Assembly (NCBI GenBank): GCA_903813345.2 | Contig: CAIIXF020000001.1 | Span: 30,121,915 to 30,185,914, forward strand | Source: Owenia fusiformis | Lineage: Eukaryota > Annelida > Polychaeta > Sabellida > Oweniidae | Direction of reading: 5' to 3' | DNA length: 64,000 bases | The notes under the pieces: generated by a model | The model's input: only the letters and a program-made list of their open reading frames with translations | What the model was told of the DNA's origin: nothing | Databases searched by the model: none | Position numbers and translations under genes: made by a program | Shown: positions 1,400-37,186 of the stretch, one piece after another | How positions within the stretch are numbered: the first letter of the stretch is position 1 | Layout: every line of letters starts with the position of its first letter

Positions 1400-1963
1400 A
1401 ACGAGGTAGGCTTGAAGCAGAGGAGAGAGCCAGACAAGAAGCTGAAGATGAGGCCAAACGTAAAGAAGAGGAGGAAAGACAAAAAAGGGATGAGGAAACT
1501 GCCAGAATGGAACAGGTATTCTTTAGAATTAACAGACAATCCAGCATATTCATATCTTCTTTTCAGCTGTTAATAACTTAATACTGCCTTATATTACACA
1601 CATTTTTGAAAGTAATAAAGCCAAGAATTGCATGTTATAGAAGTAGTGGTCCCAAGCTCTTGTGGGATTATTGACAATGAGTAGAGCAACCCCTTCATGT
1701 AGCTCAGAGCTCCGAGCTAGTACAATATCTATAGAGTGCTTGTTTGATTTTTTAAAAGTGTTCCCGAAAGTAGGATTCAAGTATTTTCAGGGAAATGTGT
1801 ATGGTGGCCATTTTCATTTCATTTGATTAGTATTATTTTATGTAATATCCAACATGTCAAATTCATCACTTAGGAAGAAGAGGCTAAAGCTCTCAAGAGG
1901 AAGTCTGAGGAAGATGAGGGATCAGACACAGAGGAGAAAAAACAGAAACTAGATGATGAACAT
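1400..1963 (+). CDS. Giant gene exons 1-2: N-terminal charged coiled coil
   Basis: Exon 1 is 1400-1515 (acceptor ...ttccag, donor gtattc) and exon 2 is 1874-1963 (acceptor cttag, donor gtaaat). Exon 1 enters in phase 1 and both leave in phase 0. The peptide is almost wholly Glu, Arg, Lys and Ala (EAEERARQEAEDEAKRKEEE), a strongly predicted coiled coil or single alpha helix. Exon 2 adds an acidic stretch with KRKSEEDEGSDTEEKK, which could hold a basic nuclear-type signal or a casein-kinase-type acidic patch. An upstream exon must supply one base and presumably the start codon. Confidence 0.65.
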
Positions 1964-4900
1964 GTAAATGTACCATTTTTGACAGGCTTATAGCTTATAG
2001 CGACAATATCAAGATTTTTGAGGCTGTTTTTTCATGTGAACTCTATTTTTGCCTGTTTTCCTAAATAGTTTGCAAGGTACTGATACATGTAGTTTAAGAA
2101 ACATGGACCAAAAACAAGTATTTTATCCTTGGATTAGAGGCCCACATGGGTGGCTATTCAAGTTTTCTAGATTCAAAACTTTGTACTGTCAGATAAGATA
2201 CTTATGAGGTCCTTATTGTAGTTCGAACATGACATGGGTCTCTCAACACAAGTAATGTGTAATCACTACTTTATAAGATCACTTCAAGAAGTGGCTTCCA
2301 TTCTTTTGACCAGTAGTCCCGATTCAGTAATTGACATTCAATCTCTGTAACAATTGTTACACTTTTGTAACTATTTGACATAACTTATCAGGTGATTGAA
2401 TTTTGTCATGTTATTACCTTGTTCAATACAGTGAATTATGTCATGTTCGAATGTACACTCATTATTAACATTTCATGCAATACTAATATCTACTGCTTTA
2501 GGTCCAGAATTGGGTTGGATATAGTGCAAGATGGGGCTGCTCCACTTTTGTGTAGTGTAATATTGTGAAAATGTACTTCCTTGTTATGTTTGAATGCAAC
2601 ACTTTGAATAAGAAACTTGAGTTGTTTTTAAAATTGTTAATTCACCGACTGATCAAACCACACATGTGCATTTTTACATGGTAAGTACTAAATGTAAATT
2701 GTTAAAGATGAAAAAGAGGTAAAATTATTTATCTACACATTCTGTTTATATTTGACTGAAGGATCTAAACACTTTTATTTACCTTCGAAATTATATGCTT
2801 TGGAGCTTCATATTAAATGCTGTATATAGTTTGGTGCTTAGAAAAAAGAATTTATTCATTGTGGAATTGCTTTGACTAATGACTGTGTTTCATAGCTTTC
2901 TGAGCTTTATTAGAACAGTCATATAGATCTGTTCATTCTGTACGTGCATAGAACAGAGAAGAATTGTTGATAATCTACAATACATGCAATGTATATAGTC
3001 TCTTGGTCAGGTTCTGCCTAGCTTACAGATCCGGGTTGACATTAGAATAGACATAGAGAGTGAAAGTAGGGTCCAGTGTGGACAAGCTTATTTGAAACAC
3101 GCTTATTCAAATATATGGACTCAATTCCTAAAAAGGGGACCAACAAATTTATAAGGAGAGGTAAGTCACACTCTTTTTTTACATATTTTTCTTCGACGTT
3201 GATATTACATATTTTTCCTCAACGCTAAATAAATGATATTTTATCTAAGACAGTTATAAAATACAATTGTTTGTAGTAACATCTCACAAAGGATTTGTAA
3301 AGAATGTAATCCATTAAACATCATTATGGTCATAAAAATATGAAATAATTATAGGATGATGAGGCGTATACATTGCAAATCATGAAGGTCAGAAAGTTGG
3401 AGGGAAAGTGGCAGAAACAGCAAGATGGTGTGCTCTGGGAAGATGCAAGTCAACTAGAAACTGACATATTCAATAAGGTTAGATGCAATTAAATCTGATG
3501 ACACCATGTAAAAGTTTTCCTATAATGAGTTTTTGATGAGGGTATCAAAGGAATATCTTGAAAATTAACATTGAAAGTGATTCATATTTCAAGGCTTTTG
3601 CTAAAAGAGAACTGTTAACTTATTCATGTCTTTGGTATTTTATCAAAAGCTTTACTTATATGTTATTGTGTACTTTGCTCAGGATGGTGTGTCAGCTGTT
3701 GTAGTGGCCAAGGTAAAACAGATTGATGGAGATTGGCACAAATTGAATGAACAATCTGGAGACTGGAAGAAACTAGATTCAAAGACTGCAAAGAAATATG
3801 AGGTATTCATGAAACTGTCATTACATTTGTATTTTGCCATGGCCTTGGATATACATCTATACGAGTTTCCTTTCACAATTCATACTCGGAATATTTTTAT
3901 AAAAAATGTCATTGCCCCATATAGTCCATTTGTTCACATTTCATTTATAGTTGACTACCACTTGTGAACTTATTATCCCAACGAACGAAGTTCGTTAGGG
4001 ATATAGTGAAGCCCTCCGTCCGTCCGTCTGTCCGTCCGTCCGTCCGTCTGTCCGGAAGATAACTCAAATACTAGTCGACAGATTTTCTTCATATTTAGTG
4101 GAAAGATGTATATTGGTGAATAATTTTACGCAAAAAAAAAATTTTCAAGATGGCCGCCGCTTTAAAAATGACGGGACTTTTTCGCAAAAATCATAAATTT
4201 TTCATTCTAAACCAAAGTAATTAATATTATTGTTTGAAATTTTGGTAGAGTATTCACAACATTTATCTATTTCACATATATTCCGTGTTTTTCATCCTGA
4301 CCCCCAGGGGCCATGTATGGGGGGACAGGAAAACAGAAATTTTCGCTAATTTTTAGATCTTTCTGAAGTATAGCTTTATTATACTCAAATGAAAGGCAAT
4401 TAAGAGTAGATTGCAAATATTGTATCTTTTTCTGATTCGAGCCTCGTAAAATTCAAAATGGACGTCTAATGTACGATTTCGCAATAATTTTTCGATCCCT
4501 TCAAAGTATGGCTATATTATACTCAAATTGAAGGAATTTTGGAGTAAATCACAATTATGGTATTATTTTTCAGATTTGTACCTCAGAAAATTCAAAATGG
4601 CTGCTTTGCAGGAATTCGCAATTCTAAAATCTAATTTTTTCATTTTCAACCAAAGTAATGAGTATAATTGATTGGAATTCGGTAATTGATATTTTGTTCG
4701 TTGGGATTTGCTACTCCGCGGAGTTGCCGTTATCTAGTTGATTACATTTTTATGATTCCAGACAAATGGTATTGTGCACTTTGAACAGAAGAAGGTTAAG
4801 AAAGTGGATGATGTTTGGAAAGAGTGGGATGAAGAGAACCAACAATGGAAGGATGCTGCACCAAATAATGCTCAGAAATATGAAGTGAGACATTTATGTT

Positions 4901-7900
4901 TTCATATAATCATTTCAACATTATTGGAATAACAGCAACAACATTATAATCTGGTTTAAAACTGTGTCTTGTTTCGTTAGATTATTTTTTAATACCAATC
5001 CATGTTGATATTACAAACAAATGAACGGTGAATTGTTTTCATATGTAGTATAGAAATTATTTCTTTTTAGTCTTAGTTGTTTCTGTTTACATCATCATAT
5101 GCATGTTTTACTTCAGCTGGGTGACTTCACTGCAAGACCAATAACACTAAGAAAGAGAAATGAAACCTGGCAGCAGTTAAAAGTAGAAAGCAATAGCTGG
5201 GAAGATGTTACACCAGCTAAAGCAGAAAAATATGACAAGGTAAATAGATGAAATTGAGAATGAATTGAATATTAGAAACACTGGTAACCATACAAGTACA
5301 AATGTATTTAGCTATAAAAAGTAAGCATGTCTGTTGTTAGTTTTTCATACTTGAAACATGAGTAATTTTGAGATTACTTGAAATAATTATCATCAATTCA
5401 CAACCTGTTAAGCTTATTTACTTTCCTTTACTGTAAACATTTTCTTCCCAATTTTGCAAACAGGAAGGTACTTTCCTTTACTGTAAACATTTTCTTCCCT
5501 ATTTTGCAAACAGGAAGGTATAGAAAGTGCTACAACACAACAGATAAAGGAGCAGGATGGGGAGTGGATGAGACTTCATGAGAAGTCTGGGGAGTGGAAG
5601 ACACTCAGTGCAAAGAAGGCTGAACAATACAAGGTATGTAAAAATGATGATGTAATTTATTTTCAATTTCAAAAGGATTGCACAGAAAGTCCACTCATCA
5701 AACGCATCACACAATTGTTTTCTCCATTAAAATAACCAAAAGTACCAAATTCATCAATTAATTTGCATTTATCCATTTGTGATAGTTGCTATTTCCAATG
5801 TAGGTTGAAATTCCAATAATGGACAGCTGTTTACCAGATGACAAGATGGAGACAGATAGTCAAGAGCACACGCTGCAGATAACTAAAGTTAGATATAATG
5901 AGGGCAAATGGCAGAAGAAGCTAGGTGGTGGGCAGTGGAAAGATACAAGCCAACTAGAAGCTGACACTTTTAATAAGGTATTTACATCATTTCGAGGGCA
6001 ATGCATATTCATATTTTGGTATGTGTACATATTATCAATTGGCCTATCATGAAATTTAAATGTTATTGTATACCTTGCACAGGATGGTGTGTCAGCTGTT
6101 GTAGTGGCCAAGCTAAAACAAATTGATGGAGAGTGGCACAAGTTGAATGAACAATCAGGAGACTGGAAGAAACTAGATTCAAAGACTGCAAAGAAATATG
6201 AGGTATTCATGATACTGTCATTACATTTGTATTTTGCCATGGCCTTGGATATATATTTCCGTTCATAATTCAGTCCCAGAACACAAAGTCTATCTAGCAC
6301 ATTTCCTTTATAGTTGGCATTGATTATATTTTTATGATTCTAGACAAATGGCATTGTGCACTTTGAACAGAAGAAGGTTAAGAAAGTGAATGATGTTTGG
6401 AAAGAGTGGGATGAAGAGAACCAACAATGGCAGGATGCTGCACCAAATAATGCTCAGAAATATGAAGTGAGATATTTAAGTTTTTTATTATAATTTCAGT
6501 ATTATTGGAATAACAGGAAATGGTTTAAAGCTGTTTTGTTTCAGTAGATTACTTTCTAATGATAATCCTGGTTGATATTATAAACAAATGAACATGTCAA
6601 ATGAATTGTTTTCATATGTAGTATCTGAATTATTTCTCTGTAGTCTAGTTGTTTATGTTTTCACCTTCATATATGTACACATGTTTTACTTCAGCTGGGT
6701 GACTTCACTGCAAGGCCAATAACACTAAGAAAGAGAAATGAAACCTGGCAGCAGTTAAATGTAGAAAGCAATAGCTGGGAAGATGTTACATCAGCTAAAG
6801 CAGAAAAATATGACAAGGTAAATAGATGATGATTAAGAAATTCATTTGAATTGAGAATGAACTGAATATTAGAAACACTGGTAAGCAATAGCTGGAAAGA
6901 TGTTACACCAGCTAAAGCAGAAAAATATGACAAGGTAAATAGATGATGATTAAGAAATTCATTTGAATTGAGAATGAACTGAATATTAGAAACACTGGTA
7001 AGCAATAGCTGGAAAGATGTTACACCAGCTAAAGCAGTAAAATATGACAAGGTAAATAGATGATGATAAAGAAATTCATTTGAATTGACAATGAATTGAA
7101 TATTAGAAACACTGGTAACCAATAGCTGGGAAGATGTTACACCAGCTAAAGCAGAAAAATATGACAAGGTAAATAGATGATGATTAAGAAATTCATTTGA
7201 ATTGACAATGAATTGAATATTAGAAACACTGGTAAGCAATAGCTGGGAAGATGTTACACCAGCTACAGCAGAAAAATATGACAAGGTAAATAGATGATGA
7301 TTAAGAAATTCATTTGAATTGAGAATGAACTGAATATTAGAAACACTGGTAAGCAATAGCTGGAAAGATGTTACACCAGCTAAAGCAGTAAAATATGACA
7401 AGGTAAATAGATGATGATAAAGAAATTCATTTGAATTGACAATGAATTGAATATTAGAAACACTGGTAAGCAATAGCTGGGAAGATGTAACACCAGCTAA
7501 AGCAGAAAAATATGACAAGGTAAATAGATGATGATTAAGAAATTCATTTGAATTGACAATGAATTGAATATTAGAAACACTGGTAAGCAATAGCTGGGAA
7601 GATGTTACACCAGCTAAAGCAGAAAAATATGACAAGGTAAATAGATGATGATAAAGAAATTCATTTGAATTGACAATGAATTGAATATTAGAAACACTGG
7701 TAAGCAATAGCTGGGAAGATGTTACACCAGCTAAAGCAGAAAAATATGACAAGGTAAATAGATGATGATTAAGAAATTCATTTGAATTGACAATGAATTG
7801 AATATTAGAAACACTGGTAAGCAATAGCTGGGAAGATGTTACACCAGCTAAAGCAGAAAAATATGACAAGGTAAATAGATGATGATTAAGAAATTCATTT

Positions 7901-10900
7901 GAATTGACAATGAATTGAATATTAGAAACACTGGTAAGCAATAGCTGGGAAGATGTTATACCAGCTAAAGCAGAAAAATATGACAAGGTAAATAGATGAT
8001 GATAAAGAAATTCATTTGAATTGACAATGAATTGAATATTAGAAACACTGGTAAGCAATAGCTGGGAAGATGTTACACCAGCTAAAGCAGAAAAATATGA
8101 CAAGGTAAATAGATGATGATTAAGAAATTCATTTGAATTGACAATGAATTGAATATTAGAAACACTGGTAAGCAATAGCTGGGAAGATGTTACACCAGCT
8201 AAAGCAGAAAAATATGACAAGGTAAATAGATGATGATAAAGAAATTCATTTGAATTGACAATGAATTGAATATTAGAAACACTGGTAAGCAATAGCTGGG
8301 AAGATGTTATACCAGCTAAAGCAGAAAAATATGACATGGTAAATAGATGATGATCAATAAATTCATTTAAAAAGCTATTTTAGTGTTCATTTTTCATACT
8401 CAAAGTTGATAAATTTTCTTTCCATATTGCAAACAGGAAGGTATAGAAAGTGCTACAACACAACAGATAAAGGAGCAGGATGGGGAGTGGATGAGGCTTC
8501 ATGAGAAGTCTGGAGAGTGGAAGACACTCAGTACAAAGAAAGCTGAACAATACAAGGTAAGTAAAATTATATTGCAACTTATTTGTTCAACTCAAAAAGG
8601 TTGCTCAGAAAGCACACTTATCAATCAATCTGAGGAAATAATACATATATTCTCTCACAATGAATAGAAATAACCAAAATACCTAATTTCATTAGTTCAT
8701 TTGCATTTATCAATTTCTAATAGACACTATTTCCCATTTAGGTTGAAATTCCAATAATGGACAGCTGTTTACCAGATGACAAGATGGAGACAGATAGTCA
8801 AGAGCACACACTGCAGATAACTAAAGTTAGATATAATGAGGGCAAATGGCAGAAACAGCAAGGTGGTGGGCAGTGGAAAGATGCAAGCCAAGCAGAAGCT
8901 GACACATTTAATAAGGTATTTAGTATTTACAGTGTTAATACTGCAGTATATTATTAGGTGATTGAGTGATTCAAGTCAAATACATTTGTTGATATTCTAT
9001 TATTGCATTAAGCCCCTGTGGGGAGGTGACAATATTCCTTTGACTGCATACACACTGATTTATGATTGCATTTATTCCAGGATGGCCTTGATGCAGTTGA
9101 GCTAAGAAAAGTGAAACAGATTGATGGAGTATGGCATGAATTCAATAAAGAAGCTGGTGCCTGGCAAAAGGCGGATCATCAAACTGCGCAACAATATGAG
9201 GTAGCCCTATCTTTTTCGATTTTTTCCTCATTATGTCTGGCTATGCCTATAAAGAATGTTGATGAACCCTGAGACATGTTTCTAGTTAGCAATACACACA
9301 CCTACCTAATTAATATCCTTTTATTTACACATCTTATCTCATCTAGACAAATGGTATTGTGCACATTGAACAGAAGAAGGTTAAGAAAGTGGATGATGTT
9401 TGGAAAGAGTGGGATGAAGAGAACCAACAATGGAAGGATGCTGCACCAAATAATGCTCAGAAATATGAAGTAAGACATTTAAAAGAAATTGTGATGGAAT
9501 ATTTTCTGCTCCAAATTAGCATAAATATAGCACAATTTGAAGTTGAACAATAGTATTGAAGCCACAAGTGGTGAACTTTGACTCAATTAACTTTTGAAGT
9601 TCAGTGATAAAATGGAGGACCAATTTTCTACTGTTTCAACTAAATCTGTACAACTGAAATATCTGAATTTGTCAGTTTTCTTGACAGAAGTGAAGAGCAT
9701 TGTTTCTCCATTTTAAAACTGGACTGCCGTGAAAAGTAAAGTAAATCACAGTCCAGCACTTGTGCCTTTTGTGGCCTCAAAATCATTGATCTCCGTGAAT
9801 TATGAACAGAAAAAGCAAAGTAAACAGTATTATCTTACAAAGAACAACCAATAAAAATGAGTGCTGTAACAATGTACATGGCAGAATGATGCTTTTATTT
9901 TAGACTGGGGAATTCAATGCAAACACAGCTATTGTGCGGAAACAAAATGGAATATGGCAGGAGCTTGATAGTAATGATATATCCTGGAAAAATGTATCTT
10001 CACAAACAGCTGAGCGTTATGAAAATGTATGTATGAGGTTGATCACATAAAAGCCAACTTAGTTTTAATGATATAAGAACTGTCTTTCAAAGGTTCAAAG
10101 AAGTAGTAATATCAAGAATGAATGTATAAGCTCACTACAATGTAATATATATGTTTATTACTTCCAGGATGGTATTGAACATATAGCAACCAATAAAATC
10201 AAAAGGGATAGTGCTGGACAATGGTCGATGTTGAATGACAAGAATGGAGAATGGACAAAAATTGATCCTAGAAAAGCACGAGAGTATGAGGTACTTGCTC
10301 TGGTTGTTTATAGCAGTGATGATATTGCTGAATATGTGCAATTGTTCAAATTAACTTTGAGTTTTATTTTCCTTCACAGGTTGAAATTCCAGTTGTGGAG
10401 TATGGTGAAGATCTAGTTGGTGAAAAGAAAGATGAATTGAATCAGTTACGAAACATCGAAGGACAATGGCAAACTTTGAACAGTAAAACAGGAGAATGGT
10501 GCAATGTCGGCCCTGTTTTAGCCAAACAACTGGACAAGGCATCTCTAGCTTTCAATGAAGATCCTGGTGAACTAAGAAAAATTGATGGGCAATGGCAAAA
10601 ACAAGATAGTAAAACTGGAGAATGGTCCAATGTGAGCCCTGCTTTAGCCAAACAACTAGATGTGGCAGCCTTATCTGTTAATGAAGATCCTGGTCAACTA
10701 AGGAAGATTGATGGACAATGGCAGAAACAAGACAGTAAAACTGGAGAATGGTCCAATGTGAACCCTGCTTTAGCCAAACAACTAGATGTGGCAGCCTTAT
10801 CTGTCAATGAAGATCCTGGTCAACTCAGAAAGATTGATGGACAGTGGCAGAAGCAAGACAGCAAAACTGGAGAATGGTCTAATGTGAAACCTACTTTAGC

Positions 10901-22900: not shown

Positions 22901-25900
22901 AAGCTTGACAAGTGGATCCCTGTGAAACCTGATCAGGCAAAGAAATTACAGGTTTGCAATATTGCTTTCCCTTACTCTCCCTATACATGTACATGCTGTA
23001 CCAATCTTTCCTAGAGGCCTAGTTCAAGGAAACACTATACATTTAAACCTCAGTGATATGAATGAAGGCGATGTAGATTTGATAAATATTAGAAGATTTA
23101 TAAAGTATACAGTTGGACTTAAGATTTTTTGCAAACATAGCATTGAAGTTGATCTACTCCTTAATATACTATATATAATGTGTACTTCTAATTGGAATTT
23201 GTGTGGTTGGCTAAATAACATATGTATTTACACTAGGGAGGCATAGAGACTGTGGATCCAATAAAGATTCATCAACACGATGGTGTCTGGTACAAACAGG
23301 ACAAAGAGAATCCTGATACTTGGACAGAGGTGGACAAACATGTAGCTAAACAACTCAGGGTAACTACAGTTTCACAGGGTTGCCAATTGCGATACTTCTT
23401 ATTTCTAAATTATTGTCATTCTCTTCTCTTGTTATGTCACCACCATAAGTAATGGCATATTGTTATAGTCGCCAACTTTTTATGAATGGTGTTCACCAGT
23501 TGGTGTTTGGTGGTTGGGGTCTGTAACAAATGGCAAGTGGTGACATTTTGCATGTAAATCCCTTGTTTGATTTTATTATAGTTTTTGAATATGTAAAAAT
23601 GTGCTGTTTTTATTATAATATTATAACTATGGCTTGCAGGAAGAGGGTTTGGGTGTAACAGATGGCTCAGATAAACTTCAGAGAGAAATGAATAAAGAGA
23701 GATCACGGAAGATATCTAGCAATGATATTCCATCTGGTAAAGACCGCCCATCTAGTAAGGATCGTCCATCTAGCAAGGATCGTCCATCTAGCAAGGATCG
23801 TCCATCTAGCAAGGACCGCCCCATGAACAAAGAGCGCACAGGCATCAGGGATAAGCGTGGAGATGACGACATATATGTGGTCGAGGCTGGGAAGCTAAGG
23901 AAGAAAGATGGTAAATGGGAACGATGGAATGATGCCCAACAGAAGTGGAAGCCAGTAAGCCAGAGAGAAAGCAGCAAGCTTGAAGTAAATAACCTGTATT
24001 GATAATCTGTTCTGTATTCTATATCTCACTCTTGCTTGTTGTTCAAAGATTTATATCAGGATTTATTTATAATTTTAAACCTAATACAGTACTTTGTCAG
24101 ATGGAACGCATTCTATTTTCAGCAGTGAATGTGGTAATAGTTTGTTATGTCACCACCAAGAAGTGGTGAATGACACAAATGTACTTGTACTTATTTGCTT
24201 TGAAATAAGAAATAGTCTTTTTTTTATTCATGTATTATCGAGGATTTATGCTTTACAGAAGGATGGTCTTAAAGTTGAGGAAAGCAAGAGAGTGAAGCTG
24301 ATAAATGGTCAATGGACAGAAAGAGATACAACCACAGGCCAGTGGAGACCAGTCAGTGAAGACTTAGCCAAGAAGCTCAATGTAAGAAACAAGAAAAAAT
24401 ATTGGAAAAACAATCTAAAGTTAATAAAAACTATGGGACCAGCAAAAATGTTTGTTCTGAAAGGTGTTCAAAGGGTTCTGATATCATAAGAGTATTAGAT
24501 GAGTTTTTTATTTTCACCAACAACCAACCAAACTAAATGAAAGTAATTTACTATTTTCCTCATGCAAAAGCTTAAAGTTTTGTATATTTTGGTATTTCGA
24601 TCCCTACTTTAGGTGAAAGTAAAGGTAAATGGCAGTAAGCGTGTGAAGAAGCTGAATGGAGTGTGGCATGAGCTAGATCCTAACACTAACACATGGAACC
24701 CTGCCTCCCAACACCAAGCTAAGAAATATGATGTGAGTGAATACATTAAAGCAATCTTGAAATATGGAGAGTGATGGACATGAATTAAATCTTCCTTGTT
24801 TTATAGAATAAAGTTCAAATATTGCATTGTACATACTTAGTATTGTATTTATGTATATCTTTTATTTATAATATACTATGGTCCCATTTCCCCATGCACT
24901 TGTAAAATTTGAAGCATTAACCGTGTCTTTTGGTGAAATGAACATTGGATTAAAGAGTGATTAGAATTCACATTATCATAGACTATCATTGGGAATAATA
25001 GGTTATTTTTTCAATTGATTTGGTATCGCTTTTGTGTACAAATGATATCTTTCTTTCTTCAGGCTGGGGATATGCATGTAGTGAAGGAGGTGAGACATAG
25101 TAAGGGAAAATGGCTAGAGAAAGATCCACAAACTCAGCAGTGGAAAGAGATGTCTGCAGCTGATGTGGAGAATATTGAACAGGTACAAACATGTACAATA
25201 GAAATTAATATGATGCATGGTTTGACTAGAATCATCATGATTTATGTAAAGTTTGACCAGAATAGTTTGGTTTATCAAAGTGAGCTTTAATTTAGCATCA
25301 TGAACATTTTGGTGTCTCAATGATCAGTCCCAAAATCACCAGAATTAAAGTGTTTGGTTCGGAAGCCAATGTTGCACTTATTTAAGCTACTTAATGAGAA
25401 ACCAAATTGTCTAGGAAGTAAAAAGTGAAAAGTAAAAGTTATGTTTCAACTGTAGTATAGACCAGTATATTCTTCTATAGAATGGCTTGGAGATATTAGA
25501 TAGCAAGGATGTGAGGCAGAGAGGTGACAAATGGGAAGAGAGAGGTGACAATGGAGTCTGGTCCGAAGTCACACCTGGTTCTAAGAAACAGATTGAGGTA
25601 ACTATTGATGTTTTTGTGTCTGTATGTTTTTATGAGAGTTGATATAATATGTGACAATAAAGACACACAGAGTACATGTATGATATGATATGTATGTGCC
25701 GTTATGATACATTGACATGACTTGCGTTGTTATCTTAAAATGAATATGCTTCTTATAATTTCAAAACATATTTGCATGGGGAATAATAAGAGCCCTTTGT
25801 TTACATACGGTATGTACATAGAATTTCAAAATGCAGACAACTTATGACAAAATTCTGAGTCATTTAAAACAATTCATTAGAGATGTATATACATGTAGTA

Positions 25901-28900
25901 TACTAAAAAGAGCATTTGCATAGTAATATGAATAATTATGTAAGCTGATGAATGAGTCAATGTTTTAACAGTGAAACCGTTCTAAAATGAACACTGCCTA
26001 TATGAGGCTCTCATAATAGGGAAATTAATGGGGACCAAGAGATATTCATCTTTTGGGGTATTTACATGCAGTACATGTTTTACTGTGTTATTCACAATGT
26101 TCCTAGGCTGGCATACCAACTATGGAGACCAAGAAAATCAAGAAGATAGGTGGCGTATGGCATGAGAGAGATGAGGAGAAGAAGATGTGGAAGAAAGTTT
26201 CTAAAATTCAAGCCAACAAATATGAGGTAGAGAAATCAATACAGTTAGTAGATAAGCAAAAACACACCGAGTTAAATAACTTTATTAGTTCTAATAGTAC
26301 ATTTTTTAAATGTTTAATAATTTTATTTGTGTGCTTGAAAATAGAATACATTCATTGTGATATAAGCTGTGTTCATCTCTTGTTATCATCGTTGCAAACC
26401 ATTTTAATGAAGTATTTTATTGTAAATTTAATGTTCAGCTGGAGAACCTGTCCAACCATGGCAAGAAGCTGAGATTACATGAGGGTGGCATTCAGGAGTG
26501 GAATGAGGACACCAAGCAGTGGCAAGACTCTGGCAAAGACAAGGAGAAAAAATCAGAGGTATTTGGAATTTCCTGTGTTGTCAATTTGATTTATTTCCAA
26601 ATTTCAACCAACCTAATAAAAGCTTATAGCTATGATCAGTGCATTCAAAATGGTAAAAACAGAGAAGAAAGAAGAAGAAATATACATGAAATTTCATTCA
26701 TTGAACATTAAAACATATGGTTGCGGCTACCTATTTCAAGCATCACATTCACATACCTAAGAAGAAAAAATAAACATGTGCCAAGCTATCTGTTTTGTTC
26801 CTCCAGGATAACATCATGTCATATGAGCCTAAGAAAGTCAGGTTCATGGATGGTAGATGGCAAGAGAAGAAGGAGGGAGCAGAAGAATGGGAAGATGTTT
26901 CTGATGCCGAGGCAGACAAGTATAATGTAAGACTTTATTCTAAGATTTTCATTGTATCATTTATTGACAAACATCATTACTTCAATGAAACATCAACCAA
27001 ATTTTTAAATAAGAAGGTATTACCAAGCACAAAACATTTTTCAGGGCCTTTGTTAATAGGATATACTTGTACAGATGTATGTTCCTTTGCCCATTAAACA
27101 CTTTTTTAGTGAGGATGTGGAAATGTTTGATTTTGGCAGAGGAAATGTTGAAAGGGAACATCACACAAAACATAAAGACCAAATTATTCCTCAAAACTTG
27201 TGTCCATTTTTATTGCTTTACATTTTAAGGTTGTCTGTTAAAACATTGAAGAATTATAATTACAGGCAGAAATAGTTGCATGTGAAGGTAAGAAGCTGCG
27301 TCTGCATGACAACAAGTGGCAGGAATACAATGAGGAAACTGACTCCTGGGAGGATGCCCCCTCTTTAAGGGTACAACAGTATGAAGAGGTGAGCATCCAT
27401 ATTTGGAAGAAACGAAAATGACTGGAAACAAACCATTCACCCCTCAGATATAAACTGTAGTGTTAATAAATAATTCACTCTTGTAACAATGAATGATGAG
27501 ATGAAAATAAAATTGCAATTCTACTTGTTCACAGGAGGGTGTTCCCATACAGGAGACCAATAAGGTACGCAAGGTGGATGGGGAATGGGAAGAATGGGAC
27601 CCCCATACTCAACAATGGAAACAAGCAAGCAAGGAGACCAATAAAACATATGATGTGAGTGATCTGATTTTGGTTGATTTACAAAATGCTTGATTTTTTC
27701 ACTGAATGTAAATCCTAAAAAGTCATATGGGCATATTATGGTAGGATTCCTATCTTCTGCTATGAGAATTTTTGTATATACAGATAAGTTATATTTACCT
27801 TGTCTGCCAAATATTTCTTTTTCTTTTCTCATATACTAGCAATACATGAACATACATATACTGATAGTCATATCTCTGAAAGAATGTGATGATGCCAGTC
27901 TCCATAGAATAAACAATAAATAAGCCCAATTATTCTTGGAATTCCTACAAAAAAGAAGAGAATAATAAACTAAGCCTTCCTTTATTTTCTAAACTGGATC
28001 TTGTCTTCATTAGGGGCAACTTTTATTTTCTCTTTTGTCTTCAGGAGAATGGCATGCCAGAGACCAAGAAAGTGAAAAGAATCAACAAAGTGTGGCACGA
28101 GTGGGATGATTCCACCTCAACATGGGTGCCTGTCTCTGAAGAAAGGGCAAAGAAATATAATGTAAGTCATCTGTTGAACACTTTTTTGTCTCCGACTCAG
28201 ATGTTTCAAAAAGATTTGCACTTGGATGATTTCAGAACTTTGATGGTGTCTGAGGAGGTTTTTCTGTTACATTATAGTAATTGATCTGGCAGTGGAAACA
28301 AATTACTAATTCATGCATGCTTTAATTCTCTGGAAAGGATATCATACATATTATATGGTTTAGAATGCACATGGGTTTACAGAAATTACAAACATGTTTG
28401 ATATAATTGCAGGATGTTCTTCATGTGTTACGCAAACATCGAGTTAAACGTATTGACGGCAAATGGCACGAGTACAACATAAAAGAGCGCAAATGGTTCC
28501 CAGTTGATGAGGCCAAGGCTAAAAAGTATGATGTAAGTAAAATCAGGCTTCTTATAACACATGTATGAAAGTATGAAATCATTGAAATGTAGTTGTATTA
28601 CATTAAATGAAATGCAAAATCATTCTAGTAACATTCAGTCACAATGACAGTGATATTCATGATTGTGTAAAGTTGTCAGTTCAGATGTATTTTTGTCAAC
28701 TGTGACAATATGACACTATTGAAATATGAAAATATTTAATGTTGAAAACATTTTAAACTTCAAAACAGTGCATTTTTGAAAACAAGAGAGAAGAACGTTT
28801 TTATTTGACAAACTATACATTTATTTCTGAAATATTCAAATGATTGCGTTGGGTTTAATGGGATGCGTTCTTTGTAATATAGACAGAGGGGGTGCCTGGA

Positions 28901-31900
28901 ATGGCATCCAAGAAGATTCGCAAGATTGATGGCAAATGGCACGAGTATGATGAATTGGAAAAAGGTTGGATGCAGGTTTCCAAACAACAAGCTCAGAAAT
29001 ATGAGGTAAAAAGAATTTATGAAGGAAGGAATCTCATAAAAATATGTTCATATTTAATATGTATATTGAAGTTTATTTTTTATAATTATTTCCATTCTCT
29101 ACCTTGCCTATTTTCTTTGTATTTCTGATCTTAGTTTAAAAATTATAGAATATACTTGATGTTCCTATGCTGCATAAAATAAAACCCTGCGTGAACTGTT
29201 TTTCAGGCTGAAAGACTCCATAACAAGAAGCCAATGAGGAAGGTGTCATTCAAGGATAGTCATAAAGAGAAAGATTCAAAATCAGGGGTATGGCAAGAGC
29301 CCCATACAGTCCAAAATACTGAAATTGAAACAGCCTCAAAGATTTTATCTATAATTGAATTCACTCATGTTATATTCAAAGTGTTGCAAATACAAACACC
29401 TTGAAGATAGGTTTTGTTATAAAAAGTTCATGGTTTGTGCAAAGTTGTCGTTTCAGATGTATTTATGTCAATTGTGTCTTACGTGTTAATTATCTTACTG
29501 ATAATACACTGATATTGTTCTATTTTAGGTATGGTTACATAATCATGTCTATCACATTCACTTGTTGATTAGCCCATCTTCCTTTGTAGGAGAATCAGGA
29601 CGTACAGGATCCTGCCAAAAAGGTGGTGCTGCTTAGAACAATATTATATGAATTTGCTAAGCAATTTGTTTATCAATTTGCTCAGCATTTAGCTTTCAGA
29701 TGCCAAACACATTCATACTGCTGCTTACAGGCATTTTTATTATACACTGTAGTATTGTAGGGGTTGCTTTCACTTCAAAACATTATACATGTCAATTCTG
29801 GCTTCATTACTCATAGTATACAATTTCAATGTTGACTTACATGTACATTGTTGACTTAATTGTCAACTGAAGAAATAAGTTTTTGTTTTAAATCTAATAT
29901 ATGATTACTGACATATTAGTTACATTCTCTAAGTGCAGGGGTACAGATCTAGAACTCATTCATTAGTTTCTTTTTGGAGAAGTAGAAAGGAACAATGTGG
30001 ATTATGTCTGGACCACTGCATTTGGAGGATGCATAACATGTAGTGTTTTAAATGCACACTTTTACTCTTAGTTGTTAGTTCATTCACATAGTAACATAGC
30101 ACTTGCAGATTTTCTGTAGTATTTTAATGTCTGAGTATTTCTTTGTATCGTCTTAGTTTTATCTTATAGCTTTCTTACATAAACGTGTGTTTTTGTTAAG
30201 CCTTATGTGTTCCATTTGGAAGCCACTAGTGTTCTGTCTAATGCTTTATATTTCCACTCGATAGCATCACTGTATTAGAGGAATAATCACATATGTAAGT
30301 TAACACTTTGGCCTCATTAACTGGCAGTTTACTTAAGGTAGACGGAGTACAATAACAATCTTCTTACATCTGTACATGGAGGCTTGTATCTCAATTATTC
30401 AACAGATTGAAATTAAAATACTGATCATGGAAAACTGCTAGTCAGTGAGGTCAATGTGGTTAGCATGTATTTGTTCATCATATATTGCATACATGTAAAT
30501 TAGTATTTGCATGAAAGAACACAAATTAATAGCATCATAGGTTTTGCCTGCCATGTATGATATGCAAAACATTGAATCAATGAAAATTGTTGCAGTGCAA
30601 TTGTGTTTCTTAAAGAGAACAATCAATGAGAAAACACAATTATGCAGCACAACCATCTTGTATTGTGATATGTTGTGTTCAGCTTTCTATGTTTGTGTGT
30701 TGCCATTACCAGGAGGCTGAGAGCCAGAAGGGTGATACTAAAAATGTGGATGAGCAGACCTCTGAGCCTGATAGCGTTGTTACTCAACCAGAACCTAACA
30801 TAGAAACTACTATTGCACCTCTGACTAACACAGTAGCTGATACCCCTATTAACAGTCTTGACTCGCACATTACTCCTGTAATTCTCTGATTAAATAAGTT
30901 GGTAGTATGATAGTAGATTTAAGATTTGCAGTGTAGAACTAGATTAGTTAGTTTGAAATCTTAACTTCTTTAAAAGTTTTTTCAACTTTTATTTGCTGAC
31001 TATGTAGTTTGATGTATGATCTATGTAGAAAATGCTAGCCTATATTGTTTGTGAATGATATATTGTGCTCTAATGGTCCAAGGGCTTATGCACATACAGT
31101 ATTAAGAAGTTGCTATTCATGTTGCTTTTCATGTATTGTAACAGTCAATGTCTATTGAAAACAGACCTCTTATAAAATATGGTGCCTTTTCGGATAGACA
31201 ATTAGAAATTGAATAGCTTCTCTTAAAATAGAATGTTATATTCACCATCTTCGTCCATGTCCCTGTGATAGAATAAGTAAACCCCATTTTATAGGAGGAG
31301 CTGCTTGAGGCGCAAAGGTTACAGAAGTTGGCTGAGCAGGCTGCAAAGGAAGATGAAGCACGCAGAGCAAGAGAGGCTGAAGAAGCAAAGGATCATGAGA
31401 AAACTTTAAGGGTAAATACAGAAATATCCAAATGCAAACAGATTTCAATGAAACCTGATGAATGTAATTCTAATTCTGCACCATTAAGTTAGAGCCCTTA
31501 CCCATAGCAAATATTTATCTTTTGTACAGTAACAGATGCATATGAGCCCCATTATGGGTCAATATGGGTAGGGAAGCAAAGATCGAGTAGAGGATGGTGG
31601 AAATGATAATTAATGTGAGGTGGAAATAAACAACTAATAAACATTTACATTGTCATATTGATCCTGTTTAGAATGCTGAGCAGAATGAAAAGGATGCGGA
31701 GGAAGAAATGAGAAAGGCAGAAGAGGAACTGAGGAAGGCCAAAGATGGTAAAGCAAAGAAAGCTGCGGAGGAAGCTGCCAAGAAAGCTAGGAATAGAGCT
31801 AAGGGTATAAACAACTTTGAAGAACCTTTATGTAATTTATTGACTATAAAATTTAAAAAAAATCAACTGAGAGTAATATTAACTGTAACTGTAATGGTAA

Positions 31901-33931
31901 CTGATATAGAATATGGTTATAACAGGGACATGGAGGATTATGAAAATATGTTTTCGCTACATTATTCATTTTCAGTCAGTTCTTTAGCATGAATTTCAGT
32001 CAGTTCTCTTTAGTGCACTATCATTTTCCATTTGGAAAATTGGGAGAATTAGACTAAATTGGACAGTAGGCTCGATATACTCTTACTCAATGTGGTGAAC
32101 ACTAATAATGCATGAACTATTATGTCCATTTACACTGGATGACTTGAATTGCAGAGTCAAAGAATAAGAAGACACGCTACAACTTAAAAATTGCTATTAC
32201 AAAGAGAGAGAAGCCACGACTGGAAAAAGCTGTGGGAGACTTCAAACAAGCGAAGCTGCCTGATGACGAGGGAGACCTTGCTAAGGGAGAGAAGATGCTT
32301 AAACTCTTCAAGTCCAGAGACGGTAAGAAAAGGCCAAACAGAAATTATATTTAAGTACATTTGCTTATGCAGATTCTGAAGTAAAATACATTTATGTTAC
32401 TTGGGCTCGATTAAAATTAAAACTAAAAATTAAATTTCATTTTAGATCTTAATGGTGCTATGCGCCGGCGCAATCTCAAGGAGATAGAGGGCGCTGTTCA
32501 CAGTTTGAAAAAGAGCGGCTTTGAAGTGAAACTTGCCAATGAGCTAGTAGATGCTAACAAACTGATGCTCCAATTGAGGCGTTTGGAGCGTATAAGAGCA
32601 GAAATCTTGGAGTTAAAACAGTCTACAGTGGCTGAGATCAGAAGCTACCACAAACCCCCACCTGTGGTGCATACAGTAATGACAGCCACATTCCTGCTAT
32701 TGGGACACAAAGAGAAGGAAACCAAGGTAGACATGTTGTCTTTATTTTTTATCTCACATGATTTATCTCATTAAAAATACTCGAATATAATGGTTAGGAA
32801 AATTATCTTTGTACCCCTTTAATTAAACTTGAAAATAACAATATCCCATCATGTTTCAGGTCTGGAAGACAGTACAAGCATTGGTGGGTAAAACAGGAAA
32901 GGATGGTTTGAAACGCCGCTGTTTGGAGTTGAAACCAGACACTGTAGACTCCTCCGCTACTGCAAGAGCGGCTGATCTCCTAGAACAGCATGGCCTGGAT
33001 GAAGTAAGAGATGTCTCTGCAGGGGCTGCTACATTCTTCCTTTGGGTAAGTTGTGACAGAATTGATCCTTATAGCTCATGTTATAACCAAGTGACCAGTG
33101 TTATCACATCCTCATCATTGCTCAATTCAACAGGTTAATTCCCATATAATGCCCCATGAGTCTATGTTTGGAAGTGAAACAGGAACTGGAGTTAATACAG
33201 AGATATTGGGAAGGAATGAAGTTAATTTATAGAAATGTACATCGTAGATAATGGTTATAATCTAAGAAGCATGTTTATACCCCATTAACTTAAATGGCAA
33301 AATCCCATGTTCATTTGACAGATTCAATGGCCTTAAAGACTATCAATAAATAGCCAAAAATTGGCTTTCATTGTATACTTAAACATGTAAAAGATCTTAA
33401 AAATTTCCTAAATTAAATTTAAATAAAATATCCAAAACCTCATGATATCAAGACTTAAAAGTTTGAGTAAATAGTTATGATGAGAAAATGTGAAATCAAT
33501 TTAATTTATTTAGTGTATTTAAAGTTTTAAGACAGCAATTTTACACATGAATCAGTGGGAGATTCATGAACAACCTACTAGAGATAATTTGTGAAATGCC
33601 ATCTATATGAGTCCTGGCTCCCAGTGCAATTGTGTGTTCATTCCAGGCTGGAAGTATTATAGAGGAGGCGAAGGCCATCAAGGAGCAGAAGAAATTTGAA
33701 GCTGAGGAGAAGAAGAAGGCTGCTGAGGCAAAGAAACTGGAACAAGAGGAGAATAAGAAACGTGCTGAAGAGGCAAAGAAAGAGAAGGAACAACGAAAGA
33801 AAGATGAAGAACAAAGGAAAAGAGAAGAGGAACAGAAAAAGGAAGATGTTGATCAAGAAGCAAATATTGAAGAGAAGACAGTTAGTGAAAAGAGTGAAGA
33901 TGCAAAACCTGCTGACTCAACAGACAGTTAA
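1400..33931 (+). CDS. Giant Trp-motif repeat protein with C-terminal dynein-type microtubule-binding domain (51 exons, 5' partial)
   Basis: Fifty-one exons with GT-AG borders and compatible phases give about 5,080 residues. Order: charged coiled coil (exons 1-2), about 106 Trp motifs (exons 3-42), linker exons (43-45), coiled coil and helical segment (46-49), dynein-stalk-type microtubule-binding domain (49-50), and a basic/acidic helix ending at TAA 33929-33931. Each Trp motif is about 40 residues: a basic run, [VI]DG.W, a second Trp after nine residues, then a short helix ending like KYE or QLD. Almost all introns are phase 0 and fall between motifs. There is no AAA+ motor. I do not recognise the whole protein. 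The C-terminal fold predicts microtubule contact, so a cytoskeletal or ciliary linker is likely; the role of the motifs is unknown. Repeat count and joins are my reading and need transcript support. Confidence 0.85.
1964..3354 (+). other. Large intron between exons 2 and 3
   Basis: About 1.4 kb of AT-rich sequence without a supportable exon. A weak acceptor-like site near 2502 is followed by a frame that stops after 18 codons. I see no recognisable element here. Confidence 0.55.
3355..5633 (+). CDS. Giant gene exons 3-7: Trp-motif cassette 1
   Basis: Exons 3355-3477, 3683-3802, 4762-4884, 5117-5239 and 5514-5633 (41, 40, 41, 41 and 40 codons), all phase 0 at both ends. Each encodes one Trp motif, for example KQIDGDWHKLNEQSGDW in exon 4 and KKVDDVWKEWDEENQQW in exon 5. 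In order they are types A (QIMKV...), B (DGVSAVV...), C (TNGIVHFEQ...), D (LGDFTARPI...) and E (EGIESATTQQ...). The same order recurs in two further cassettes downstream. Exons 4-7 are nearly identical to exons 9-12, which points to recent segmental duplication. The intron before exon 5 carries an inserted element. Confidence 0.85.
3955..4734. mobile_element. Non-autonomous inserted element, about 0.75 kb, in intron 4
   Basis: An insertion absent from the matching intron of cassette 2 (6203-6343). A 12-bp inverted repeat, atcccaacgaac at 3975-3986 and its complement at 4696-4707, bounds the core. The direct repeat tagttga occurs at 3948-3954 and 4735-4741, which would be the target duplication if the outer edges are right. 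Inside are a TCCGTC microsatellite (about 4015-4055) and no long open frame. The family is unknown to me, and the exact ends are uncertain by about 20 bp. Confidence 0.55.
5421..5520 (+). repeat. 50-bp tandem duplication of a splice acceptor
   Basis: Two copies, 5421-5470 and 5471-5520, differ at one base and each contains polypyrimidine, CAG and the first bases of exon 7 (gaaggta). Only the second acceptor (exon start 5514) leads into the open exon; use of the first would shift the frame by 50 nt and meet stops. The paralogous exon 12 has a single acceptor. Confidence 0.85.
5804..8556 (+). CDS. Giant gene exons 8-12: Trp-motif cassette 2
   Basis: Exons 5804-5977, 6083-6202, 6344-6466, 6695-6817 and 8437-8556 (58, 40, 41, 41 and 40 codons), all phase 0. 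They repeat types A to E of cassette 1. Exon 8 has a longer leader (VEIPIMDSCLPDDKMETD) ahead of its motif, shared with exon 13 and echoed at the start of the giant exon 18. Exons 9-12 match exons 4-7 almost residue for residue. The intron between exons 11 and 12 is swollen by a 117-bp minisatellite built from the end of exon 11 and its donor. Confidence 0.87.
6767..8338 (+). repeat. 117-bp minisatellite (14 units) seeded by an exon-intron border
   Basis: The unit starts at agcaatag (6767, inside exon 11) and recurs exactly every 117 bp to 8288, that is 14 units. Each holds the last 51 bases of the type D exon (coding SNSWEDVTPAKAEKYDK), a donor (gtaaat) and about 60 bp of intron. The copies lack the first half of the exon and a good polypyrimidine acceptor, and 49- or 43-nt candidate exons would break phase 0, so they are probably intronic. 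Because 117 is divisible by three and stops are absent, the minus strand shows a 548-codon open frame, which is a by-product. Confidence 0.9.
8742..10290 (+). CDS. Giant gene exons 13-17: Trp-motif cassette 3
   Basis: Exons 8742-8915, 9081-9200, 9347-9469, 9904-10026 and 10168-10290 (58, 40, 41, 41 and 41 codons), all phase 0. Types A and C (exons 13, 15) are near identical to those in cassette 2, while types B, D and E (exons 14, 16, 17) have diverged, for example KQIDGVWHEFNKEAGAW and RKQNGIWQELDSNDISW. The mix of near-identical and divergent exons suggests an older duplication with later partial homogenisation. The next exon downstream is again an A-position exon, the giant one. Confidence 0.85.
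9201..9346 (+). other. Intron between exons 14 and 15
   Basis: A 146-bp intron with donor gtagcc and acceptor atctag. An open frame crosses its right part into exon 15 in another phase and is not coding. Confidence 0.6.
10380..18695 (+). CDS. Giant gene exon 18: 8.3-kb exon with 65 tandem 42-residue Trp motifs
   Basis: Acceptor ccttcacag and donor gttagt bound 8,316 bp, 2,772 codons, phase 0 at both ends. It opens like an A-type exon (VEIPVVEYGED) and then runs through 65 copies of a 42-residue unit. The DNA period is exactly 126 bp: the landmark before atcctggt at 10561 and its equivalent at 18499 are 63 x 126 bp apart. Key residues are LRK.DGQW, a second W ten positions on (KTGEW), NPALA.QLD and SVNEDPG. 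No unit is frameshifted or stopped. Variation is mostly at I/V of [IV]DG, H/K before QLD, and D[VA][AT]A. The tail (KPKKKKNRKE) is strongly basic. The extreme uniformity implies recent expansion or gene conversion. Confidence 0.93.
17743..18498 (+). repeat. Distinct subfamily of six homogenised 126-bp units at the end of exon 18
   Basis: Six consecutive units, marked by accccagt at 17869, 17995, 18121, 18247, 18373 and 18499, share GGWSNVGPALSKELD, LAVNEDPSHL and caaaaacaa codons that the first 58 units mostly lack. They alternate QKQDS and QKQGS. The block is nearly identical internally at silent sites too, so it is a later local amplification on top of the main array. The first of the six is a hybrid that still has the older PGQL at its start. 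Confidence 0.85.
19116..21077 (+). CDS. Giant gene exons 19-24: diverged Trp motifs, two exons holding a pair
   Basis: Exons 19116-19241, 19421-19663, 19861-19983, 20202-20429, 20634-20744 and 20952-21077, all phase 0. Exons 20 (81 codons) and 22 (76 codons) each encode two motifs, as expected if the intron between them was lost or never gained; the others encode one. Exon 19 keeps only the first Trp (EDGEWKKIDP). Exon 23 is a degenerate motif with no Trp (REVDGQLLKYDG). Exon 20 has GEWHQWNNEAGGW and GKWKEWNPHNNKW. These motifs are far more divergent than those in exon 18, so they are the older form. Confidence 0.85.
21489..23984 (+). CDS. Giant gene exons 25-30: Trp motifs and a PSSKDR linker
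   Basis: Exons 21489-21611, 21771-21890, 22130-22237, 22832-22951, 23237-23359 and 23640-23984, all phase 0. Motifs include NHWHEWNESKGKW, GKWCEKNEETGHW and GVWYKQDKENPDTW (one residue longer between the two Trp). Exon 30 is long (115 codons): before its motif (GKWERWNDAQQKW) it carries a basic, Ser-rich hinge with about four tandem PSSKDR hexapeptides encoded by near-identical 18-bp units (about 23730-23820). That hinge is probably flexible and interrupts the regular array. Confidence 0.85.
22238..22831 (+). other. Intron 27 with a GC-richer insert
   Basis: A 594-bp intron. At about 22375-22510 it has a GC-richer patch unlike its surroundings, with cgcccc, ccgggcgtctcggc and, on the minus strand, gggttcgaagcc, which resembles a tRNA-type internal promoter B box. 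I could not find a matching A box, so a SINE remnant is only possible. Confidence 0.3.
23434..23547 (-). mobile_element. TGTCACCAC-family short element, copy 1
   Basis: About 114 bp in the intron before exon 30, starting tgtcaccacc and ending gtggtgaca, that is with 9-bp or longer terminal inverted repeats. The inside reads agtcgccaacttttt, ggtgttcacc and tctgtaacaaatgg. The same order is found, in either orientation, at about 36374, 37610, 41634, 43804, 57072 and 60893. Confidence 0.75.
24259..26926 (+). CDS. Giant gene exons 31-37: one Trp motif per exon
   Basis: Exons 24259-24381, 24613-24732, 25063-25182, 25481-25597, 26107-26226, 26439-26558 and 26807-26926 (39-41 codons), all phase 0. 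Motifs include GQWTERDTTTGQW, GVWHELDPNTNTW, GKWLEKDPQTQQW, DKWEERGDNGVW and GRWQEKKEGAEEW. Exon 36 is aberrant (HEGGIQEWNEDTKQW), with Ile in place of the first Trp. Introns are 230-510 bp and AT-rich. A short palindromic TGTCACCAC remnant lies at about 24147-24176 in the intron before exon 31. Confidence 0.87.
27266..29622 (+). CDS. Giant gene exons 38-44: last Trp motifs and start of the linker
   Basis: Exons 27266-27388, 27535-27654, 28045-28161, 28413-28532, 28883-29005, 29207-29287 and 29590-29622, all phase 0. Exons 38-42 each carry a motif (NKWQEYNEETDSW, GEWEEWDPHTQQW, KVWHEWDDSTSTW, GKWHEYNIKERKW, GKWHEYDELEKGW). Exon 43 (27 codons) keeps only the basic strand and then a Lys/Ser-rich run, and exon 44 is a microexon of 11 codons (ENQDVQDPAKK) with donor gtggtg, so both may be optional. 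The motif array ends with exon 42. Confidence 0.8.
29623..30712 (+). other. Intron 44
   Basis: About 1.1 kb of AT-rich sequence with no supportable exon or recognised element. The acceptor at its right end is ttaccag. Confidence 0.55.
30713..30889 (+). CDS. Giant gene exon 45: linker or alternative last exon
   Basis: After acceptor ttaccag the frame runs 58 codons (Glu, Thr, Pro and Ser rich, with EPDSVVTQPEPN) to TGA at 30887-30889. A phase-0 donor, cct|gtaatt, at 30878 lies just before the stop. Splicing there (exon 30713-30877, 55 codons) joins in frame to exon 46, whereas not splicing ends the protein without its microtubule-binding end. The peptide is low-complexity and probably disordered. 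I favour splicing as the full-length form; both may occur. Confidence 0.65.
   Translation, partial: EAESQKGDTKNVDEQTSEPDSVVTQPEPNIETTIAPLTNTVADTPINSLDSHITPVIL
31295..32322 (+). CDS. Giant gene exons 46-48: coiled coil and helical segment
   Basis: Exons 31295-31411 (phase 0-0), 31672-31804 (phase 0-1) and 32155-32322 (phase 1-1). Exons 46 and 47 encode Ala/Glu/Lys-rich coiled coil (EAEEAKDHEKTLR; KKAAEEAAKKARNRAK). Exon 48 is less repetitive (YNLKIAITKREKPRLEKAV) and has the pattern L..A..kre.p.LE.Av seen in helical linkers of many axonemal proteins. The split Glu (G|AG) at 31804/32155 and split Asp at 32322/32446 support these joins; they are the first non-phase-0 introns since exon 1. Confidence 0.8.
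32446..33931 (+). CDS. Giant gene exons 49-51: stalk coils and dynein-type microtubule-binding domain
   Basis: Exons 32446-32726, 32860-33045 and 33647-33931. Exon 49 carries the incoming coil (NELVDANKLMLQLRRLERIR) and the start of the globule, AEIRSYHKPPPVVHTVM, then FLLLGHKEKE. Exon 50 continues WKTVQALVGK, LKRRCLEL and EVRDVSAGAATFFLW. This order is that of the dynein heavy-chain stalk tip: EI+S..KPP..V..V..A...LLG, W..., FL..L, then VR.VS.AA..L..W. Exon 51 is the outgoing coil (AGSIIEEAKAIKEQ) running into a long Glu/Lys helix and ending TDS-stop. No AAA+ ring precedes it, so this is a stalk tip without a motor. Homology to the dynein tip is by recognition, not by search. Confidence 0.85.
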
Positions 33932-35658: not shown

Positions 35659-37186
35659 ATGTTGCCAGGTTGTATGATGTTGCTCTATCCAGTTGCTCTC
35701 CTACTGCTTGTTCAGGGTGCAGTGGCCCAGACCAGGTGAGTGGGTACAAATTTTGAAAATTGATAAGCATCTTAAATAATATCAAATAATATATAGGACT
35801 TTGAACCAAAAAGTTGATCGAGTATTCAAACCTTGTTTTTTGGTGGAATACTATATGTAATAAGTTCGCAGAGATAATCCACATCATACATGATCGAGTT
35901 CAATATTGACAAGTTTATTTTGTTTTGTCTAAATATCATCTCAATGATAGGTGTCAGTGTGCTGCAATGGTAGAAGATGACTACCTCAACCTCTCCCCAG
36001 TGCTAGAGTTAATGGGTGATGCTGACAATGGCCCTTCCTGTGATAACCAAGCTCTCAATGACTGTGAGGACGCATGTATACTTGAGGGGGCATTTGGAAC
36101 CCATCCTGCCCTAAACATCAGTGGACTCATAAACTATGTAACACAATATAATATCCCTGCATCTCGGGGGGGGGGGGGTTCACTGTATGCAGACTAGGCT
36201 GAACCCTTAGATATCAATATGCTCCCAAACGCCATACCAAATAGTGGTCCAATGCCATACCAAATGTCCGAATCCAATGAAAAACGAAAAATTCTACATT
36301 GGCATACTTCAAAATATGCTAAAATTTTGGTCCATTGCCATACAAAATGTTAAACAAGGGATTGACTTGCAAAATGTCACCATCTGCCATTTGTTACAGA
36401 TGCCAACCATCAACTGCTGAACCCCATTCACAAAAAAGTTGGTGACTTTAACAATATGTCACCACTTGTGGTAGGCACATAAAAAGATACCACACATGAG
36501 CTGAGGATCCCCTGTCAATGTTTATATGTGATGTAGTGAACCCCTAGAGATATTTTAGATTTGTTAAACAAGTTGTAACTGCTATTCATACACTGAAGTA
36601 TATGTTTAATACCTATATTTTACCACAGAAAAATGCAACTTGGACCAGAGGTGCTGCCTACTGTGATATGATCAATGACGATGGAAATATCGTCATAACG
36701 GACCCTCCAGGCCAATTTGTTGAGGTATTTAGTAGAATTGAGGGATGTGTTGGAGCTGATTTCTGGTGGGTGACACTCCCAGAGGTACATATGAATTTCT
36801 CTATGATAGATGATAAAACTTGTGAACATTGTTTGACTCAAGTTCATTCCTCATTATAAGAGTCGGTGAAAGAATAATGAAGCAATATTTGTGGTGTCCA
36901 ATATTAGGTTTGTATATATTGTGGAATAACTAACCATTAAACATCACTTTCTATTGAGGAAAATACATTTAATGTACAATGTCGATGCAAAAAGTTTTGT
37001 CAAACCAGCTGTTTATGGGTGTGTGTGGAGTTCTTTAGATATCATTTCAACAAAATTGAGCATTTCAGGAGGAAAATCCATTTTACATGTACAATGAAAT
37101 ATATTTTATAAAAAACATTTCTTCAGGTCCAAGGTGATGACGAACTGTGCTGCAATGGTGCCACATGGAACGAAAACTGTGTCTAG
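35659..37186 (+). CDS. Small secreted cysteine-rich protein, four exons
   Basis: Exons 35659-35735, 35951-36137, 36629-36784 and 37127-37186 give about 159 residues. The N-terminus is a clear signal peptide (MMLLYPVALLLLVQG, probable cleavage near AVAQT). The split Arg codon (AG|G) at the first junction and phase-0 donors and acceptors at the others support the model. The mature part has about eleven Cys (RCQCAAM; GPSCDN; NDCEDACIL; AAYCDM; IEGCVG; ELCCNG; NENCV) and Trp-rich patches (FWWVTLP, ATWNE). Exon 2 would otherwise run into a poly-G tract. I recognise no family. It looks like a complete extracellular protein with several disulfides. Its 5' neighbour is unrelated. Confidence 0.7.
36374..36480 (+). 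mobile_element. TGTCACCAC-family short element, copy 2
   Basis: About 107 bp in intron 2 of the small secreted-protein gene: tgtcaccatctgcc, tgttacagatgcc, aaaaaagttgg.gact, atgtcaccacttgtgg. The order matches the other copies. A poly-G tract (about 36169-36178) lies 200 bp upstream in the same intron. Confidence 0.7.

Follow-up and report, generated by a model that had tools for sequence, protein, structure and literature searches.

The 64,000-nucleotide stretch of the annelid Owenia fusiformis analysed here (contig CAIIXF020000001.1, positions 30,121,915 to 30,185,914 of the forward strand; "the window", numbered from its first letter) holds on its plus strand most of a gene for a giant protein, in which an array of tryptophan (Trp)-pair repeats precedes a C-terminus resembling the tip of the dynein stalk. 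From splice signals and open frames, we built by hand a model of 50 exons at 1400-33931, encoding 5,024 residues and one stop codon. Five further exons lie upstream of the window at -8948 to -1327, so the window contains only part of the gene; the extended model comprises 55 exons and 5,263 residues from ATG to stop, spanning window coordinates -8948 to 33931, or about 43 kb. GT-AG borders all 54 introns of this model (introns were chosen for GT-AG), and 50 of the 55 exons start in phase 0. An earlier note, made from the letters of the window alone, had described one continuous spliced frame of about 5,080 residues; the continuity stood, whereas completeness within the window did not, and the length fits a model with one additional exon from 30713 (splicing at 30877 would add 55 residues), and we treat that exon as an alternative. 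We consider it very probable that the gene encodes a non-motor protein with the layout head, coil, 106 Trp-pair repeats, second coil, and dynein-stalk-like tip, distributed over the following features:

-8948 to -8808, -8177 to -8008, -7747 to -7566, plus strand: three head exons (amphioxus head match, in-frame joining)
-1844 to -1696, -1399 to -1327, plus strand: two upstream coil exons (in-frame joining to window exons)
1400-1515, 1874-1963, plus strand: two exons of the charged E/K/R coil that leads from the upstream EF-hand-like head to the first Trp repeat (frame, splice sites)
3355..10290, plus strand: 15 exons with Trp-pair repeats 1-15, one per exon (exon model, repeat model)
10380..18695, plus strand: giant exon, 2,772 codons long, that encodes 65 Trp-pair repeats, each of 42 residues (Tandem Repeats Finder, repeat model, substitution pattern)
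19116..29005, plus strand: 24 exons with 26 Trp-pair repeats, two each in 19421-19663 and 20202-20429 (exon model, repeat model)
29207-29287, 29590-29622, plus strand: two linker exons from the repeats to the second coil (weak donors)
30713..30889, plus strand: possible last exon used as an alternative, with a stop after 58 codons and ATTAAA at 30889 (candidate exon)
31295-31411, 31672-31804, plus strand: two exons of charged coil ahead of the tip module (exon model)
32155-32322, 32446-32726, 32860-33045, plus strand: three exons with a helical region and a dynein-stalk-tip-like globule (frame, phmmer, family profile, homologue structural model)
33647..33931, plus strand: last exon, with a helix after the globule (CC2-like), a charged tail, and the stop codon (exon model, homologue structural model)

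The dynein-stalk-like tip and its relatives

The C-terminal motifs succeed one another as in the tip of the dynein stalk, which the earlier note had already pointed out, and a phmmer search of the PDB with the single window sequence agreed, matching DNAH10 at E 4.8e-5. A profile of the tip family reached DNAH6 at E 1.1e-7, with all 56 of the matches listed being dynein, as far as labels tell. Counting against this kinship, the Pfam model PF12777 gave no match to the window tail at E <= 1 and matched only 5 of 16 family members, weakly (best E 0.0038, none above the gathering score). The profile match to the dynein stalk domain that had been anticipated was thus obtained with the family profile and not with the Pfam model, which is insufficient for the window tail; beyond the phmmer match, the link to dynein rests on the family profile or the structural model. 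In the latter, homologue P0002—64% identical to the window protein over the module—adopts a predicted dynein microtubule-binding domain (MTBD) fold, so that structure prediction also favoured the earlier proposal, on this homologue instead of the window protein. Likewise upheld was the absence of an AAA+ ring: the repeats cover residues 310-4836 of 5,263 and leave room for head, coils, and tip only, and Pfam scans of five pieces (about 1,500 residues, part of the protein) contained no AAA domain. Profile and model together indicate that tip and dynein stalk tip are diverged relatives, with kinship at the level of fold.

Among proteins of 847-2,695 residues, 12 relatives were retrieved—five of bivalve KY type, six of amphioxus CLCA/VWA type, and amphioxus P0049 (Hypp8934)—with domain calls taken from a Pfam scan for eight and from precomputed domains for the remaining four. 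The UniRef name of another relative, P0009 of Ciona savignyi, is 'Dynein heavy chain coiled coil stalk domain-containing protein'. Within the Owenia genome itself (498 Mb assembled, with the window on C1), 13 matches to the tip module were listed, four of them exons of this gene and nine elsewhere: one on C163, two each on C6 and C46, and four on C35, where they fall at two places with opposite orientation. At C6:30498635-30513031, one C35 place, and C163 (loci among L005-L013 and L021-L029), KY-transglutaminase-like sequence adjoins the module; C46 and the other C35 place, judged at match level only, have scores similar to that of the first and may be copies of it. Judging from these matches, the tip module is also present in other non-motor proteins and so is not unique to this giant one. 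The earlier description of a giant non-motor Trp-repeat protein with a dynein-type C-terminus survives, although it missed both this wider occurrence and the EF-hand-like head. The further proposals of microtubule anchoring, a place in cilia or sperm, and titin-like behaviour stay conjectural.

The stalk tip of dynein binds tubulin. By analogy, the tip of the window protein may do so too, a proposition for which we see roughly even chances. In an alternative with the same gene and layout, the tip would not bind tubulin and would instead be a protein-interaction or dimerisation module. Features conserved within the family and not in the aligned dynein rows (e.g., a GKTGK stretch) would fit such a role, as would the placement of the module behind very different heads (CLCA/VWA, KY-transglutaminase) and a 125-residue core that is nearly neutral overall (21 K+R, 17 D+E); tubulin binding by the tip is, moreover, itself a prediction. 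Against it, the dynein-like side retains a positive stretch, and both the succession of the helices and the helices that flank them are preserved; we regard loss of binding as unlikely, if a serious contender.

The upstream head and the probable continuity of the transcript

Because P0049 and Ciona LOC100182150 (P0007) have an EF-hand-like start, an upstream head was suspected for the window gene. Comparison of the amphioxus head with 60 kb of upstream sequence yielded three matching pieces, all on the strand of the gene and 7.6-8.9 kb upstream of the window start (best E 9.4e-22, 61% identity). P0049 matches the extended model at residues 1-166 with E 2e-51 and at residues 4773-5190 with E 5e-95, and both ends are also matched by P0007 and P0017; this search was run without low-complexity filter or composition correction, and coil matches are therefore inflated. 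The head matched EF-hand_6 at E 0.0015 (18.5 bits, under the Pfam cut-off of 25) and troponin C weakly, at E 0.0032, consistent with a degenerate EF-hand-like domain whose EF-hand signal is weak; calcium control is doubtful, since the EF-hand loops look degenerate by eye. Separately, a reverse-transcriptase-like sequence lies on the minus strand at -5770 to -4883, in the intron between head and coil. It matches the reverse transcriptase part of P0049 (tblastn E 1.4e-13), and P0049 likewise has a reverse transcriptase between head and coil.

As judged by these comparisons, the repeats are flanked by the two ends of one ancestral protein; head and tip co-occur in amphioxus and tunicate proteins, an indirect argument for a single transcript. 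With ancestral head and tip on either side of the repeats, the parts probably belong together—the best argument short of RNA—and we think it likely that one transcript spans them all. Several observations pull in the other direction: the alternative exon at 30713, with its stop and ATTAAA, may leave room for a tipless Trp-repeat form; the donors at 29287 and 29622 are weak (5 and 6 of 9 consensus bases); tip open reading frames of 345-365 residues without repeats exist in other taxa; no database protein of the lengths covered, which leave out 405-846 residues, joins the repeats to the tip; and P0049 is possibly a gene-model fusion. The first four would suit two products or genes, namely a Trp-repeat protein that stops within 30713-30889 and, encoded apart from it by exons 31295-33931, a short tip protein. 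We find this quite improbable: the repeats are preceded by the ancestral head and followed by the ancestral tip, on the same strand and in frame. Moreover, when first exons starting with ATG and feeding 31295 were sought, one candidate had a donor of at least 7 of 9 (30465-30494), and it shows no similarity to relatives by eye.

The Trp-pair repeat array and neighbouring sequence

A hidden Markov model (HMM) trained on 36 single-repeat exons identified 106 Trp-pair repeats, every one at domain E < 0.01, in line with the roughly 106 motifs counted previously; 15 fall before the giant exon, 65 inside it, and 26 after. The same HMM found no repeats in 20 shuffles of the full protein, and nothing in the examined stretches of C6, C35 (one of two places), and C163, or in the 60 kb upstream of the window. 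A loose Trp-pair pattern matched 64 times in the window array, and none of 59 other proteins compared had more than one match (ten had one). Within the giant exon, the 65 copies keep an exact 42-residue register and differ mostly by silent changes, the ratio of nonsynonymous to synonymous differences (pN/pS) being 0.23 for the first 57 copies and 0.28 for all 65; stops are present in both other forward frames. On these two grounds, the array is selected coding sequence.

Elsewhere in the array, a 117-bp tandem at 6766-8368 (13.7 copies, 97%) is made up of intron and the 3' portion of repeat exon 6695-6817 and occupies the next intron; by eye, its frame is incompatible with the phase-0 exons, suggesting a failed or young expansion adjoining a working one. 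That the array is an untranslated assembly or pseudogene artefact, as 65 near-identical copies in one exon and a duplication-prone locus (given that 117-bp tandem) might imply, is highly implausible in view of 2,772 codons without a stop, the low pN/pS, the closed forward frames, and 41 more repeats in clean exons beyond the giant exon; the copy number in the assembly could be wrong even if the repeats are translated.

The predicted repeat structure is beta-beta-beta-alpha per unit, at a predicted local distance difference test score (pLDDT) of 65.7, a model too weak for mechanics. No spectrin, Ig, or FnIII family scored above cut-off in the repeat pieces scanned. As for kelch, profile A7 matched a designed kelch protein at E 1.6e-13, which is the sum of six identical 14-residue stretches at 7.4 bits each; Kelch_6 weakly matched one of eight repeats (E 0.14); and the Foldseek kelch rows had a probability of 0.30 or less, for a model that includes the helix.

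Three other features lie downstream in the window. A small cysteine-rich, secreted-looking protein is encoded in several exons at 35910-37190 on the plus strand, with no Pfam match in two pieces scanned; a 60-bp tandem array at 40068-40753 (11.4 copies, 95%), with long frames open on both strands, is probably not coding; and a ROCO-type gene occupies 41041-50308 on the minus strand (COR-A domain, E 9.9e-26; weak Roc match under cut-off, E 0.00019).

Proposed origin, function, and comparison with known systems

The best overall explanation, which we hold at about even odds, is one gene for a non-motor head-coil-repeats-coil-tip protein that serves as a long microtubule-docking tether. An old head-coil-tip protein, persisting without these repeats in amphioxus and tunicates, would have received a unit of one exon and one repeat that then grew in tandem, steps that would be neutral for the frame because the exons are phase-0. 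By analogy with dynein, the tip would dock on microtubules passively, without ATP, while the head would hold a partner and the array would keep head and partner at a distance. Some 4,500 residues of small units would most simply make a spacer, and a long tether is the most likely mode of action.

The finding is real and unusual, and its known part, the dynein-type tip, can be told apart clearly from its unknown part, the Trp repeat. If the tip binds tubulin, the dynein MTBD would be an exchangeable anchor that is not confined to motors. The array would represent a novel kind of giant molecular spacer; the one-exon repeats show how an array can grow inside an older protein with its frame intact. 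More tentatively, an unrecognised animal family of non-motor proteins (EF-hand, KY-transglutaminase, and CLCA-type) may employ the tip of the dynein stalk as a modular microtubule anchor, with its EF-hand member turned here into a giant spacer by a new beta-beta-beta-alpha Trp-pair repeat grown to 106 copies. Consistent with the earlier impression of novelty, no described family with this layout turned up in the literature, mostly that outside subscription journals.

Among relatives, P0007, P0017, and P0049 share the EF-hand-like head and dynein-stalk-like tip and differ in having no Trp-repeat array, P0007 and P0017 being only 394-405 residues long and P0049 carrying a reverse transcriptase between head and tip. 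The bivalve KY-transglutaminase and amphioxus CLCA/VWA proteins (P0050-P0060) share the C-terminal tip module at 35-38% identity to the query, but have other head domains and no array. Compared with the dynein heavy chain stalk/MTBD (PF12777), the tip family shows a short helix, H1-H6-like helices, and a long following helix in the same order, as well as EIRSY.KPP, W, and DVS...W motifs; in contrast to dynein, the window protein has no AAA+ motor and an extra GKTGK stretch, its tail falls under detection by the Pfam model, and the homologue model has short helices where dynein has the long first coil. Spectraplakins combine a spacer, EF-hands, and a microtubule-binding end, and, like titin-like giants, they resemble the window protein in their long repeat spacer—a likeness in how such proteins work and not in membership. 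The repeat pieces scanned contained no spectrin, Ig, or FnIII above cut-off, and the microtubule-like end of the window protein is of the dynein type.
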